The position numbers and the translations under genes were made by a program. The notes below the pieces were generated by a model. That model was not told the DNA's origin. It saw only the letters and a list, made by a program, of their open reading frames with translations, and did not search any database. From positions 124,001-188,000 of the forward strand of contig NZ_JADCLL010000006.1 of NCBI RefSeq assembly GCF_015070375.1: a stretch of DNA of 64,000 bases, read 5' to 3'. This document shows, piece by piece, positions 10,483 through 16,694 of the stretch (position 1 is the first letter of the stretch; every line of letters starts with the position of its first letter). Origin of the DNA: Nocardioides kribbensis (lineage in GTDB: Bacteria > Actinomycetota > Actinomycetes > Propionibacteriales > Nocardioidaceae).

Positions 10483-11850
10483 GTGCACGTCATCACCATC
10501 CCCCTGCCCGCCCTGGGCAACCGGTGCCACCTGGTGCACGACGGCGCCTCGGCGCTGGTCGTCGACCCGCCGCGCGACCTGCGCCCGGTCGAGCGGGCCG
10601 CCGAGCAGGCCGGCGTGGACATCCGCGTCGTCGCCGACACCCACGTGCACAACGACTACGTCTCCGGCGCCCTCGGGCTCGCCCGACGCCACGGCGCCGA
10701 CTACCTGCTCTCGGCCGACGAGGCGGTGGACTTCGAGCGGGTCGGCGTGCGCGACGGCGACCGCGTCGCCGTCGGCCGGATGAGCCTCGAGGTGCTCGCC
10801 ACGCCCGGCCACACCCGCCACCACCAGTCCTTCCTGGTCACCGGGGCCACCGGGGCGTCCGGCAGCCCCACCGCCGGCGCCGTGTTCAGCGGCGGCAGCC
10901 TCCTGCACGGCACCGTCGGTCGCACCGACCTGGTCGACCCGCGCCTGGCCACCGACCTCGCCCGCGCCCAGTGGCGCAGCGCCCGACGCCTCGCCGCGCT
11001 CGACCCCGCCACCCTGCTCCACCCCACCCACGGCTTCGGGTCCTTCTGCGCCGGCCGGCCCGCCGAGGCCGGCGACGGCGACGTCACCCTCGCCTCCCAG
11101 CTGACGACGAACCCCGTGCTGACCAAGGCCGAGGAGGCGTTCGTGTCCGACCTCGTCGCGGGCTTCGGCCCGGTCCCGCGCCACTACGCCCACATGGCTC
11201 CGCTCAACCGGGCCGGTGCCGGGCGCAGCGCCGGTCGGGCGGCGCGGCCGGTGACCGCGGCCCAGGTCTCCGACGCGGTGCTCGCCGGGGCCTGGGTCGT
11301 CGACCTGCGAGGACGCGACCGCTTCGCCGAAGGGCACCTGACCGGGTCGGTGAGCGTCGAGCAGGGCCCGCAGCTCGCGACGTACGTCGGCTGGCTGGTG
11401 CCGTGGGGCGACGACATCGTCCTGCTGACCGACGACCCCACCCGTCTCGGTGAGGCCGTGAGCGACCTCGCGGCCATCGGCATCGAGGGGGTCGGCACCC
11501 ACGTGCTCGACGGCAGCGAGGCCATGGGGGCCCGCTACCGCCGCACCGACTGGGCGGGCTACCGCACCGCCCCCGCCGGGGTGCGCCGCGTCGTCGTCGA
11601 CGTGCGTCAGCGTGACGAGTGGCAGTCGGGACACCTGCCCGGGGCCTTGCACCTGCCGGTGCAGGACGTCGAGCGGGCCGCGCACCGGCTGCCCGCCGGC
11701 GAGCTGTGGGTGCACTGCCGCTCGGGCTACCGCGCCGGCATCGCCGCCAGCCTGCTGCACCGCACCGGCCGCTCGGTGGTGCACGTGGACGACGGCTGGG
11801 AGCGGGTCGAGGAGCTCGCCATCCCCACCGTCGCCGGTCTCGCCGCCTAG
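10483..11850 (+). CDS. Metallo-beta-lactamase/rhodanese fusion, persulfide dioxygenase-like
   Basis: Cytoplasmic sulfur enzyme of the CstB/ETHE1 group, 455 residues. Residues 1-240 form a metallo-beta-lactamase fold with the metal motif THVHNDYVSG at 53-62 and TPGHTRHH at 108-115. Two rhodanese domains follow. The first (about 262-350) lacks an active-site cysteine and has TDDPTRL in its place; the second carries C412 in HCRSGYRA. Known family members oxidise persulfides made from sulfide to sulfite or thiosulfate. It sits upstream of a methanethiol-oxidase-like gene and a sulfur transporter, which fits disposal of released sulfide. The GTG at 10483 follows GGAGG. The reaction is inferred from the family. 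Confidence 0.88.
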   Translation: MHVITIPLPALGNRCHLVHDGASALVVDPPRDLRPVERAAEQAGVDIRVVADTHVHNDYVSGALGLARRHGADYLLSADEAVDFERVGVRDGDRVAVGRMSLEVLATPGHTRHHQSFLVTGATGASGSPTAGAVFSGGSLLHGTVGRTDLVDPRLATDLARAQWRSARRLAALDPATLLHPTHGFGSFCAGRPAEAGDGDVTLASQLTTNPVLTKAEEAFVSDLVAGFGPVPRHYAHMAPLNRAGAGRSAGRAARPVTAAQVSDAVLAGAWVVDLRGRDRFAEGHLTGSVSVEQGPQLATYVGWLVPWGDDIVLLTDDPTRLGEAVSDLAAIGIEGVGTHVLDGSEAMGARYRRTDWAGYRTAPAGVRRVVVDVRQRDEWQSGHLPGALHLPVQDVERAAHRLPAGELWVHCRSGYRAGIAASLLHRTGRSVVHVDDGWERVEELAIPTVAGLAA

Positions 11851-11997: not shown

Positions 11998-12042
11998 CAG
12001 AGGCGGCCCCCCGGCCGCCCCTCTCGGGAGGTGCTCCACCCC

Positions 12043-14058
12043 GTGTCAACATCCCACTCCGCGCGCTCGACGCGCCCCCGCACCCAGCGGACCCACAGCC
12101 GGTGGCGACTCGCCGCCGGCGCGAGCCTGGCCGCCCTCGGCCTGGCGTCCTCCGGTCTCGTCGCCCAGGCCCCCGCCTCGGCCAACGAGACCAACGAGCC
12201 GGGCAGCGACCCCGGCCAGCCCGTCGACATCGCCACCCCGGCGATCGCGACGCTCAACGGCCTCATCCAGTCGCTGTTCAACTCCGAGATCATCAGCCAG
12301 ACCTCGAAGATCATCGGCGCCGACGACCGGGCCTACTGGCTGACCAACAACCTCGAGTCCGACCTCATCCCGACCACGGTCCTGCAGGACCTCGGCCTCG
12401 GCGACGTCATCCCGGACCTCGGGCTGGGCGGCGGGGACTCGGGCGGCACGGTGCCCGACGACGGACTGCGCCGCGAGTACCTCGTGGTGTGGGCCGGCGA
12501 CAACAACATCCTCGACCGCACCGGCAAGGAGCTGACCTCGCTCCCCGAGGTGGTCAACTCCGACCTCCTCGGCACGCAGGACCTCATCGGCCCCGACTTC
12601 TTCGCGGTCGTCGACGCCACCAAGGGCTCCTCCAGCTACGGCAAGGTGGTCAACACCGCCACGGTCGGCCCGCTGGTCGAGAACGAGCCCCACCACATGC
12701 AGTACATCTGGCACAAGGGCAACAACATCTTCGCCGGCGGGCTCTTCACCGACGTCACCTACGTCATCGACACCTCCCGGCTCCCCGCCCTCGAGCTCAA
12801 GCACGTCAACCTGCCCACCGACACCCTGTGCGGCTCCGTGCCCGACGCCTACTGGGTGACCAAGGACGGCGGCGCCTACGGCACCTACATGGGCGGCCCC
12901 GACGTGCCCGGCCCCTGCACCTACAGCGACGGCACGACGCGCATCGGCAACGGCTTCGCCGGCTCCCCCGGCGAGCTGGTCCGGCTGGACGAGAACGGCG
13001 AGACCGTCTACGAGGCGCCGGCGACCCCGCTCACCGCGGAGACGAAGGAGCGCTGCGACAACATCCCGCAGCTGCCCGCCGCCACCTGCGCCAACCCGCA
13101 CGGCATCCAGGTGCGCGAGGACCTCGACACGCTGATCACCAGCGACTACAACGAGCCCCGCAACATCATCCTCAACCCGGTGGCCGCGCCCTCGTCGTAC
13201 CTGCGCCGGCCCACCGTGCGCACCTGGGACATCTCCGACCCCGACGAGCCGAAGCTCAAGGCGGTCTCCTTCCTGCCCGACGGGCCCCGGGTGGGCAAGG
13301 TCGCCCACCACGAGGAGAACCGCGCGGTCATGGAGACCACGGTGACCAACCAGCCGGGCCACAAGGGCGCCTTCGCCTCCACCATGCAGGGCGGTGCGAT
13401 CTTCTACAGCCCCGACATCACCGCGGCGAGGCCGGAGTGGCGCGAGGTCTTCGACCTCTCCACCGCCAACAAGCAGATCGCCCCCGACCAGAACCCCTAC
13501 GGCGGCGGCGTCAACAGCGCCTGGATCCAGACCAGCCTCGACGACAAGTACCTCTACAACGCCGTCGCGGGGCGCTCGGCCAGCGGCACCGACCAGGGCA
13601 GCAAGCCCTTCATCCTCAAGCTCGACATCCAGCAGCTGGTGGCCTCCGGGGGCGACCCCGAGTGCAGCATCGACACCATCGAGGAGACCGTCGAGGGAGG
13701 CGCCGAGAGCGACTGCCCTGCTGTGGTCGACATCCTCGAGGCGCCCGGCGGCCCCCACTGGGGCACCCTGGACAACCTCGAGCTCGGTGAGGACGGCTAC
13801 TACCACGAGACCACCGACGTGAAGCGGATCGCCTACTCGAACTACTTCGTGGCCCGCACGGGCCTCGACGGCGACCACCGCGTCTGCATGGTCGACATCG
13901 CCGAGGACGCCACCATGGCGATCGACGAGGAGTTCGCCGACGAGAACACCGGCGAGCCGTGCCTCGACTTCGACCGCGAGGAGTGGCCCCACGGCGTGTG
14001 GGGCCCGGCCAAGCCGCACTCGATGCTCTTCGTCACCGCCGACGACGACATCCGCTGA
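12043..14058 (+). CDS. Exported SBP56/methanethiol oxidase-like protein
   Basis: Member of the selenium-binding protein 56 family, whose bacterial copper-dependent members (MtoX) oxidise methanethiol to formaldehyde, hydrogen peroxide and sulfide. 671 residues, longer than the usual 430-480. The N-terminus is a Sec-type signal: basic residues, then LAAGASLAALGLASSGLVA and a likely cleavage after APASA. Family-like segments include PDFFAVVDATKGSSSYGKVV, NEPHHMQYIWHKGN, ANPHGIQVREDLDTLITSDY and GGPHWGTLDNL, consistent with a beta propeller. The stop at 14058 is followed 20 bases later by the next gene. I chose GTG 12043; GTG 12031 is an alternative. Family assignment is from motif recall, and activity is an inference. 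Confidence 0.72.
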   Translation: MSTSHSARSTRPRTQRTHSRWRLAAGASLAALGLASSGLVAQAPASANETNEPGSDPGQPVDIATPAIATLNGLIQSLFNSEIISQTSKIIGADDRAYWLTNNLESDLIPTTVLQDLGLGDVIPDLGLGGGDSGGTVPDDGLRREYLVVWAGDNNILDRTGKELTSLPEVVNSDLLGTQDLIGPDFFAVVDATKGSSSYGKVVNTATVGPLVENEPHHMQYIWHKGNNIFAGGLFTDVTYVIDTSRLPALELKHVNLPTDTLCGSVPDAYWVTKDGGAYGTYMGGPDVPGPCTYSDGTTRIGNGFAGSPGELVRLDENGETVYEAPATPLTAETKERCDNIPQLPAATCANPHGIQVREDLDTLITSDYNEPRNIILNPVAAPSSYLRRPTVRTWDISDPDEPKLKAVSFLPDGPRVGKVAHHEENRAVMETTVTNQPGHKGAFASTMQGGAIFYSPDITAARPEWREVFDLSTANKQIAPDQNPYGGGVNSAWIQTSLDDKYLYNAVAGRSASGTDQGSKPFILKLDIQQLVASGGDPECSIDTIEETVEGGAESDCPAVVDILEAPGGPHWGTLDNLELGEDGYYHETTDVKRIAYSNYFVARTGLDGDHRVCMVDIAEDATMAIDEEFADENTGEPCLDFDREEWPHGVWGPAKPHSMLFVTADDDIR

Positions 14059-14078: not shown

Positions 14079-15362
14079 ATGACGTCGTACGACGACACCA
14101 CCCCGGGGCGGGACCGGTCCGACCGGTCCCGCCTCCGGGCGGTCCTGACCCTCGGCGCGGCCGGAGCCGTGGCGGCCCTCGTGGTCGCCGGCGCCGTCAG
14201 CGCCGGGGCCGGACCGTCGGGCTCCGACCCGCGCGAGGGCAGCGCCCTCGTGACGGACTGGACCGCCCGCACCGACGGCCAGCAGGTCCTCGGCGGCGAG
14301 CGGGAGCCCGGCGTCCCCACGATCCAGCGGATCCGGCACGACGACGTGCAGTTCACCGTGACCGTCGCGCCCGCCCGTCCGGGCCCCAACCTCGTGCGCA
14401 TCGACGCGCTCCACGTGGAGCGTCGCTCCGAGGGACGCCCCGGCGCGGCCGGTCACGCCACCAAGCCCGCCTGGGTCGGCACCAGCGAGGACTCCCTGGT
14501 CAAGGCGGTGCCGCGACCCGGCACCGACGGCCTGTGGGCCACCGTCGACCTGCCCGAGGGCAGCGGCACCGTGCTGGTGACCCACGGCCGCTGGCACCGC
14601 GTGCCCTTCGCGGTCGAGACGGGCGCCGACACCCCGGACACCTCGCTGTGGACCGGCGACGACGGCCCCGAGTGCGTCGCGGCCGCCACGGCCGAGGTCA
14701 TCACGGGGGCCCTCCCCTCGGTGTGCCCGGCCGCCGGGCTCAAGCAGCCCGACGAGACGGCGCTGCTCGCCGTGGTCGACACCCTGGCCGCCCGCGGCGT
14801 CGAGGAGCTGGCCGTCGAGCACGACCCGTCGGCCCGCAGCCGGCAGGCCCTCGCGGCCGTGACCGCCCGCGCCGAGGACCTCGGCGTCGAGGTGGTCGAC
14901 CCCGCGGCCGCACCCGGCGAGCGCAACGCGCTGCTCGTCGTGAGCGGGTGGGCCGACGCGGCCCGCTCACTGGCCGAGGTCACCGCCACCCCGCTGCGCC
15001 AGCAGCCGATCCGCTCCGACGGCACGTGGCTGGCCCCCTGGCTGCTCTCGCCGGGCGTGGTCGACTCCACCGCCGGCGCCATGGTGCCGCTGGACTTCGA
15101 CATCCGGACCCCGGAGGCGCGCGACTTCAGCGCGACGCTGGCGACCTACCTGCCGGGCCAGTCGCCGACCTCCAGCGGCTTCGCCGCGTGGCGCAGCCAG
15201 CACGCCCAGGATCCGCTCCCCCTGGCGCTCTACGCCGCCTCCCGCGCGGCGTACATGCCCAGCCAGCGCGGTCACGAGGGCCACGAGACGCAGGTCGCGT
15301 GGTTCCCCGGCGGCACCGTCACCCCGGTCGGGCTCCCGCTCGAGCCGCCGATCGCGCGCTGA
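14079..15362 (+). CDS. Membrane-anchored protein of unknown function with CopC/YtkA-like domain
   Basis: I do not recognise this 427-residue protein as a named family. A short cytoplasmic tail is followed by one membrane segment (about residues 21-43) and a long outer part. Residues about 85-180 resemble the CopC/YtkA/CopD C-terminal beta sandwich (FTVTVAPARPGPNLVRID and GLWATVDLPEGSGTV). Residues about 195-330 look like an alternating alpha/beta region (ALLAVVDTLAARGVEELAVE, NALLVVSGWADAARSL), as in type I periplasmic-binding folds. The tail has a GHEGHET cluster and FPGG. It follows the SBP56 gene by 20 bases, so it is likely in the same operon. A role in copper supply or complex assembly for that enzyme is a guess. 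Confidence 0.6.
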   Translation: MTSYDDTTPGRDRSDRSRLRAVLTLGAAGAVAALVVAGAVSAGAGPSGSDPREGSALVTDWTARTDGQQVLGGEREPGVPTIQRIRHDDVQFTVTVAPARPGPNLVRIDALHVERRSEGRPGAAGHATKPAWVGTSEDSLVKAVPRPGTDGLWATVDLPEGSGTVLVTHGRWHRVPFAVETGADTPDTSLWTGDDGPECVAAATAEVITGALPSVCPAAGLKQPDETALLAVVDTLAARGVEELAVEHDPSARSRQALAAVTARAEDLGVEVVDPAAAPGERNALLVVSGWADAARSLAEVTATPLRQQPIRSDGTWLAPWLLSPGVVDSTAGAMVPLDFDIRTPEARDFSATLATYLPGQSPTSSGFAAWRSQHAQDPLPLALYAASRAAYMPSQRGHEGHETQVAWFPGGTVTPVGLPLEPPIAR

Positions 15363-15421: not shown

Positions 15422-15440
15422 ACCTAGATTGGACACCACC

Positions 15441-16694
15441 ATGTCGATCCTCCAACGCCCCCAGGTGGGCCGCTCCGCACCGCCGGGACCTCCCGCCCAG
15501 GACGCCCCCGCACCCCAGGCCGGCATCGTGCTCGGCGGTCTCGTGGCCGCCGGGGTGCTCGGCGCCGTCATCTTCGCCCGCTCCGGGCAGACCCCCGCCG
15601 TGCTCTTCGGCCTGGGGCTGTCCCTCGGCTTCGTGCTCTTCCACTCCCGCTTCGGCTTCACCTCGGCCTGGCGCCAGCTGGTCGCGGTCCGGCAGGGCAA
15701 GGCCCTGCGTGCCCACATGCTGATGCTCGCGGTGGCCTGCACGCTCTTCGCCCCGATCCTCGCCACCGGGGTCTCCTTCGGTGACGCGGCGCCCACGCCC
15801 ACGCTGGCCCCCATCGGCTTCGGGCTCTTCGTCGGCTCCTTCCTCTTCGGCGTCGGCATGCAGCTGGGCGGCTCCTGCGCCTCCGGCACCCTCTTCGCGA
15901 TCGGATCAGGCCAGAGCGCCATCGTGCTCACGCTGCTCGGCTTCGTCGTCGGCTCGGTGCTGGCCGCCCGCACCTTCTCCTTCTGGACCGGGCTGCCCAG
16001 CTTCGAGCCGGTCTCCCTGGCCGACACCGGCGCGGGCTACCTCGGCGCCTGGGCCATCTCCCTGGCGGTGATGGCCGCGATCGTCGGGCTCACCTTCGTC
16101 CTCGGACGGGGCCGCAGCGTGCCCCCGGTCGAGCCGCCGCCGGTGGCGCGGGGGGCCGCACGGGCCGTGCGCGGCTCCTGGCCGCTGTGGGTCGGGGCCC
16201 TGCTGCTGGCCGGGCTCAACGCCCTCACCCTGCTGGTCTCCGGCGGCGCCTGGGGCATCACCTTCGCCTTCGGCCTGTGGGGCTCGAAGGTCCTCGACGC
16301 CCTCGGTGTCGACGTGCTCGGCTGGCCCTTCTGGAGCGACCCGGCCAACCTCGCGAAGTACCAGGCCGGCGTGCTGGCCGAGAAGACCTCGGTGATGGAC
16401 CTCGGCATCATCGTCGGGGCGCTCATCGCCTCGGCCGCGGCCGGGTCGTGGGTGCTGCACCGGCGCATCCCCGCCAAGCTGGCCCTCGGGGCCGTGCTCG
16501 GCGGCGTCATCATGGGCTACGGCGCCCGGATCGCCTTCGGCTGCAACATCGGCGCCTACTTCGGCGGGATCGCCTCCTTCAGCCTGCACGGCTGGCTGTG
16601 GGGGGTCATGGCCGTGGTCGGCACCGTCGCCGGGCTCGCCCTGCGCCCGCTCTTCGGGCTGACGAACCCCCGCCCCACCGACTCCGTCTGCTAG
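15441..16694 (+). CDS. YeeE/YedE family sulfur-compound transporter
   Basis: Polytopic membrane protein of 417 residues with about nine to ten hydrophobic segments in two internal halves. The conserved cysteines of the thiosulfate importer YeeE have counterparts here: C146 in GGSCASGT and C368 in FGCNIGAYFGG, each in a helix break. Characterised relatives import thiosulfate by relaying it along cysteines. It follows the sulfur-oxidation genes on the same strand, so it may move thiosulfate or sulfane sulfur between the two compartments. No Shine-Dalgarno is seen; ATG 15441 is preferred over TTG 15429. Family call is strong, substrate is inferred. Confidence 0.87.
   Translation: MSILQRPQVGRSAPPGPPAQDAPAPQAGIVLGGLVAAGVLGAVIFARSGQTPAVLFGLGLSLGFVLFHSRFGFTSAWRQLVAVRQGKALRAHMLMLAVACTLFAPILATGVSFGDAAPTPTLAPIGFGLFVGSFLFGVGMQLGGSCASGTLFAIGSGQSAIVLTLLGFVVGSVLAARTFSFWTGLPSFEPVSLADTGAGYLGAWAISLAVMAAIVGLTFVLGRGRSVPPVEPPPVARGAARAVRGSWPLWVGALLLAGLNALTLLVSGGAWGITFAFGLWGSKVLDALGVDVLGWPFWSDPANLAKYQAGVLAEKTSVMDLGIIVGALIASAAAGSWVLHRRIPAKLALGAVLGGVIMGYGARIAFGCNIGAYFGGIASFSLHGWLWGVMAVVGTVAGLALRPLFGLTNPRPTDSVC

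Follow-up and report, generated by a model that had tools for sequence, protein, structure and literature searches.

A strict genomic partner of a remote SBP56-like protein in Nocardioides, homologous to part of a YcnJ-like copper importer fusion and a candidate copper accessory

The window analyzed here, a stretch of 64,000 nucleotides from Nocardioides kribbensis, holds a cluster of forward-strand genes centered on a protein of 427 residues, which we call X427 (14079-15362; ORF and homologues). Directly before it lies the gene for a secreted SBP56-like protein of 675 residues (12031-14058) and, as the original prediction had it, X427 begins 20 bases after that gene, with the stop codon at 14058 and the X427 ATG at 14079. 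The third cluster gene (15429-16694) encodes a sulfur transporter of the YeeE/Sulf_transp family (PF04143, E 7e-63), and upstream of the pair is a gene (10483-11850) for a metallo-beta-lactamase (MBL)-rhodanese protein (PF00753 and PF00581), persulfide dioxygenase-like, whose product resembles persulfide dioxygenase-sulfurtransferase proteins. With these two genes as flanks, neither SCO1/SenC nor MauG was recognized at the X427 locus; a SCO1/SenC gene is found elsewhere in the genome in all 18 genomes checked, and in the window genome it lies on contig 15, the X427 window on contig 11. A scan for a sigma-70-like promoter site at the locus returned none and is uninformative in a genome so rich in G+C.

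Fifteen homologues, complete or nearly so and 44-67% identical to it, show that X427 is a conserved gene. Profile searches against Pfam and NCBIfam matched it to no family, no relatives were found among viral contigs, and a search of solved structures with its sequence returned only osteocalcin entries (E above 0.3), which we reject as chance matches in the hydrophobic segment. That segment, residues 22-40 (14142-14198), is the single one in the protein, with a mean Kyte-Doolittle value of 2.27 and none above 1.35 elsewhere; a scan of 16 homologues was included, and the segment would form a membrane anchor or an uncleaved signal. Behind it follow a YtkA/FixH-type beta domain (residues about 80-186, 14316-14636; hhalign via fusion proteins), a reduced type I periplasmic-binding (PBP), Peripla_BP_6-like region (residues about 194-394, 14658-15260; predicted structure, structural alignment and profile match) and a His tail, GHEGHET (residues 398-404, 15270-15290). 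Within the second region, C199 and C216 (14673-14726) are invariant in 20/20 X proteins and probably form a disulfide.

The partner enzyme carries an apparent cleavable signal and falls well under both curated thresholds for its family, scoring 19.1 bits against a cut-off of 34 for Pfam PF05694 and 21.8 against 650 for the NCBIfam MtoX model; among solved structures it hits only the SBP56 entry 2ECE (E 0.66). When a profile of 14 such SBP56-like proteins is aligned by hhalign with one of 11 canonical SBP56 proteins, the match is full-length and collinear (score 60.5, E 7.2e-7), the best of 100 column shuffles reaching 28.9. Judged by these profiles, the gene upstream of X427 is a remote SBP56 and not an mtoX orthologue. 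Its His-His pair and C-terminal His align with those of canonical SBP56, and His 221, 222, 576 and 663 are invariant (18/18). The HxxH pair of the canonical proteins, which is required for activity in the copper-dependent human SELENBP1 (PMC10362175), is not kept, PDAY standing there in the profile alignment. Because four His are invariant, HxxH is changed and four nitrogen ligands are assumed for the copper of MtoX (PMC5739008), the SBP56-like protein likely has a copper site in which one ligand position differs. The SBP56-like proteins fall into clades A and B in the enzyme tree, and since one genome (G428) has a canonical SBP56 together with a clade B SBP56-like gene, the two kinds are separate families. 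A long-branch SBP56-like gene was also met in G563 (L045, 9418-11250), where neither X427 nor the fusion described below is detectable within 19 kb.

Among 215 Nocardioides genomes searched, X427 occurs in 15 (a count that leaves out a sixteenth row of 44 aa at E 4e-4), and in all 15 a clade A SBP56-like gene lies beside it. SBP56-like genes are present in 18 of the 215; the three that come without X427 (G041, G055, G309) belong to clade B, whose proteins are 35-36% identical to that of the window, and have the fusion as partner. The pair is also found in one further genus of the family (G163), and a close-pattern scan of 84,980 species yields 12 X427 loci, nearly all from Nocardioides and one from a metagenome-assembled Actinomycetota genome, each with an SBP56-like gene directly upstream. 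With the SBP56-like protein as query, a translated search reaches further: six linear plasmids of Streptomyces match it at about 50% identity. In the four that were opened (L152-L155: NZ_CP108163.1, NZ_CP108984.1, NZ_CP108789.1 and NC_024970.2), the gene after the SBP56-like one overlaps it by some 4 bases and codes for a hypothetical protein of 392-437 residues, which is homologous to X427 by a two-sequence comparison (E 2e-37, with 31% identity across 377 positions); by eye, its hydrophobic N-terminal region is longer. Among plasmids, this homologue is restricted to the six that bear the SBP56-like gene. X427 is thus tied strictly to the SBP56-like gene, never found without it across the 15 Nocardioides genomes, G163 and the six plasmids. 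The partnership with an SBP56 protein that had been proposed from the window holds as regards linkage, occurrence mainly apart from such genes being the opposite of what is seen; what has to be amended is the identity of the neighbor, only a remote SBP56 below the Pfam and NCBIfam cut-offs. At one locus, in Nocardioides ungokensis (L104, the same as L022; 5886-8898), the SBP56-like gene and X427 are both broken across reading frames, which points either to decay or to an error in sequencing.

In the place of X427, 11 clade B loci have a gene for a protein of about 980 residues directly behind the SBP56-like gene; three of these loci are from Nocardioides, the others from several genomes in another class of the phylum (two of these fusions are cut by a contig end or only partly matched). 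Pfam identifies CopC, CopD and Peripla_BP_6 in the fusions at four loci (L035:4254-7271, L036:9141-12155, L043:1924-5163 and L044:4757-7876), with CopD slightly under its cut-off in two of the four; further fusions lie at L094, L095, L097, L098 and L108. Each of the nine fusions examined carries the CopC His motif (HP...DGH). CopD and the PBP domain are separated by a beta domain that passes the gathering score of FixH (PF05751) in one fusion and aligns with eight YtkA (PF13115) members at a score of 58.2 and E 1.4e-9, against 18.2 for the best shuffle. Read by profile, then, the fusion is the layout of YcnJ, the CopC-CopD-YtkA copper importer of Bacillus subtilis (PMC12362106, PMC13344008), plus a PBP domain, an architecture of which we found no description in the literature searched. 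Two further features of these loci may be recorded. In two of the Nocardioides clade B loci a gene for a DUF4395 protein adjoins the fusion (L035:3730-4254, L036:12046-12750). In five of nine fusions (L043:1924-3504, L044:4757-6310, L095, L097 and L098), none of them from Nocardioides, the beta domain contains a short Cys-bearing motif, CACS, CSAC or CGC, possibly an extra metal site.

The relation of X427 to this fusion emerges from profile alignments. With 16 X homologues, the X427 beta domain matches the fusion beta domain at E 3.4e-6 (score 53.7; best of 150 shuffles 29.5), and hhalign of the two domains also gives E 6.8e-8. With four Streptomyces proteins added, the resulting 20 X proteins align with the C-terminal half of the fusion over 286 columns that span both domains (score 65.2, E 9.3e-8; default local alignment, best of 60 column shuffles 23.5). 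C199 and C216, present in 20/20 X proteins, align with two Cys that are invariant in the PBP domain of nine fusions, and the ends are alike as well (WFPGGTVTPVG versus YFPEGNWTVTS). By itself the PBP region does not stand out from shuffles (score 26.9 with a best shuffle of 25.5, and 23.6 with one of 27.8) and becomes significant solely in joint alignment with the beta domain, and hhalign of the X427 beta domain directly against YtkA (PF13115) is likewise non-significant (score 16.5, best shuffle 18.0), also with the Streptomyces homologues added, hmmscan too returning no match. Because these two direct comparisons are non-significant, the domain assignment rests on intermediates and on collinearity. 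On that footing, the alignments show in two steps that the X427 beta domain has a common origin with the YtkA-type domain of CopC-CopD-YtkA importers or derives from it, and they show homology, by profile, of X427 to the C-terminal half of a YcnJ-like copper importer fusion.

The beta sandwich that had been read from the window as CopC/YtkA-like is, by these intermediates (E 6.8e-8 and E 1.4e-9), YtkA-like but not CopC-like, and the HMM search proposed for it came back empty, neither CopC nor YtkA being matched in X427 directly. More specifically, CopC (PF04234) has no match, nor has CopD (PF05425), there being one hydrophobic segment only; the Peripla_BP_6 profile (PF13458) matches neither X427 nor its Streptomyces homologues. 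An identity as SCO1/SenC (PF02630) was also considered and rejected, with no match and with two conserved Cys 16 residues apart rather than a CxxxC. CopC and CopD are probably missing from X427 through loss; we infer this direction, and hold it likelier than gain, because CopC-CopD-YtkA is also the Bacillus layout, the tree parting clades A and B without by itself proving the direction of domain loss.

With 25 input sequences, AlphaFold2 models residues 60-427 at a pLDDT of 77.5 and a pTM of 0.78, the input alignment having held PBP-bearing fusions that may have steered the model toward the PBP fold; a model from five sequences (pLDDT 41) was set aside. Since Foldseek alone gave an E of 7e-4 at best, structural alignment with VIA-align was applied, and here type I PBPs and their receptor relatives fill 50 of 50 rows, the best match being 8tg1, a urea-binding protein (Z 14.0, rmsd 3.4, 213 aligned residues). 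The alpha/beta region recognized in the original prediction, for which a structure prediction and fold search had been suggested, is on this model a reduced type I periplasmic-binding fold spanning residues about 194-394. It takes up about 235 residues in X427 as against about 390 in the fusions and has a shortened first lobe; most of one lobe is therefore missing.

The other feature that sets X427 apart from the fusion is its histidine content, on average 2.5% in X proteins versus 0.2-0.8% in the corresponding half of the fusions. All 16 Nocardioidaceae members have H173 and H402; for H87, H169 and H399 the number is 15. In each member, the loop after the strand NLVRxD carries at least two His. 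The Streptomyces homologues are without the beta-domain His 87, 169 and 173 and keep that of the tail alone. Across all 20 X proteins the sole invariant His is H402, in the GHEGHET tail (GHxxH) that had been picked out from the window sequence, so that no feature of this kind is more constant than the tail.

Sulfur genes surround the pair well beyond the window. A YeeE gene follows X427 in the loci long enough to show the downstream gene (G163 aside), and the MBL-rhodanese gene lies upstream of the pair in most loci, being missing beside it in L008, L009 and L010. On two of the four opened plasmids (L152 and L155), cysD, cysC, PAPS reductase and sulfite reductase genes adjoin the pair; on a third (L153) cysD does, and on L154 none of these. 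The cys and reductase genes beside the plasmid pair therefore indicate sulfur acquisition.

In bacteria, animals and plants alike, SBP56 proteins use copper to oxidize thiols, methanethiol among them. To our knowledge, how they are supplied with that copper is poorly known, SCO1/SenC having been suggested by gene order only. SBP56/MtoX depends on copper and its genes sit with SCO1/SenC (PMC5739008), and the YtkA domain of YcnJ supports CuA assembly together with CtaK (PMC13344008). X427 looks like a reduced copper-uptake protein, and so it probably helps the SBP56-like enzyme to obtain copper. With evenly balanced confidence, we propose that it is a membrane-anchored accessory to a secreted thiol oxidase of SBP56 type, for which it would load or hold copper. 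X427 would sit at the outer face of the membrane and hold copper with its His tail, either passing the metal to the SBP56-like protein or keeping that protein metallated and near the membrane; by way of the putative thiol oxidase activity of the latter, the cluster would feed thiol-derived sulfur to YeeE and to persulfide-oxidizing enzymes. Strict linkage, partner exchange with the fusion, domain homology, fold, His/Cys conservation and the sulfur-gene neighborhood are the points that we count in favor of a copper role. Against it count the missing CopC copper site and CopD importer, the lack of a direct YtkA match, the non-significance of the PBP region alone, the absence of the beta-domain His in Streptomyces and the loss of HxxH in the SBP56-like protein. 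X427 itself cannot import copper, because CopD is absent and a search of the window genome for a YcnJ-like CopC-CopD, with one query only, gave no match; with import not possible, a holding and handing-over role fits better.

The type I PBP fold of X427 would also suit a partner that binds or senses a ligand, its PBP region presenting a sulfur compound or an amino acid to the SBP56-like enzyme or to YeeE, with the His tail incidental or structural. The full Peripla_BP_6 domain in the related fusions and the sulfur transport and assimilation genes nearby are consistent with such a role; a shortened first lobe (about 235 versus 390 residues) makes a normal two-lobe cleft doubtful, however, and the conserved cluster has no ABC permease, so that we regard this reading as rather unlikely. 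Nor does much speak for X427 as a mere membrane tether or scaffold that binds neither metal nor ligand and serves to retain its secreted partner, the SBP56-like protein, on the surface of the cell. A single N-terminal hydrophobic segment with soluble domains behind it, a reduced PBP and strict pairing with an apparently signal-cleaved protein are what one would expect of a tether, but a tether has no need of an invariant His tail or of the His-bearing loops found in 16/16 Nocardioidaceae members, nor of descent from a copper importer, and we judge it quite improbable.

A different doubt attaches to the enzyme, which may not be a thiol oxidase at all, the pair then serving some other extracellular copper- or metal-dependent reaction or binding function. 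The SBP56-like protein lies under both curated cut-offs and far from canonical SBP56, HxxH is missing and a canonical SBP56 coexists with it in G428; on the other hand, the match is full-length and collinear, the His-His pair and C-terminal His are kept, four His are invariant and sulfur genes surround the locus both in Nocardioides and on the Streptomyces plasmids. On balance we think this somewhat unlikely. Returning to the copper accessory, it is plausible that X427 would stand in for SCO1/SenC as a copper chaperone, and each genome checked still encodes a SCO1/SenC protein elsewhere. A broader reconstruction, to which we give only tentative and rather doubtful standing, would have secreted copper thiol oxidases of SBP56 type form a branch apart, with a metallochaperone line of its own, in which a CopC-CopD-YtkA-PBP chain combining copper uptake with solute sensing or binding was followed, in Nocardioides and on Streptomyces plasmids, by a reduced, His-tailed descendant without the importer; solute binding by the PBP could then gate copper loading.

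Nothing was found on Nocardioides and methanethiol oxidase in the literature searched. Here, the constant partner of a divergent SBP56 branch, traceable by sequence to a copper importer, offers a concrete protein for testing copper delivery, and the two kinds of locus offer a natural progression that leads from a fusion with an importer to an accessory that is small and anchored. Among SBP56 proteins themselves, MtoX and SELENBP1 share with the SBP56-like protein a full-length profile match, the His-His pair, the C-terminal His and, in bacteria, secretion, but they are about 435-460 residues long as against about 675, and the SBP56-like protein has PDAY for HxxH and an extra His 576. The SCO1/SenC protein encoded beside mtoX likewise adjoins an SBP56-family gene and is likewise presumed to help with copper (PMC5739008), whereas X427 is of different fold and sequence and has no CxxxC. 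Type I PBPs such as UrtA, AmiC and Peripla_BP_6 proteins have the fold of X427 residues about 194-394, with Z up to 14; in X427 the first lobe is strongly shortened, and the cluster is without an ABC transporter.

Another parallel is CtaK (formerly YtkA), a membrane-anchored lipoprotein implicated in CuA assembly, which like X427 combines a single membrane anchor with a YtkA-type domain and is proposed to act in metallation of a copper enzyme on the outside (PMC13344008); X427 differs from it in lacking a significant direct YtkA match and an evident lipobox and in having a PBP-like region. YcnJ and the fusion, for their part, have CopC, CopD and the YtkA-type domain in identical order, and of these X427 retains the YtkA-type part. 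Unlike YcnJ, X427 is without CopC and CopD, has a type I PBP region after the YtkA-type domain and a His tail, and is tied to an SBP56-like enzyme, where YcnJ is tied to the respiratory oxidases.
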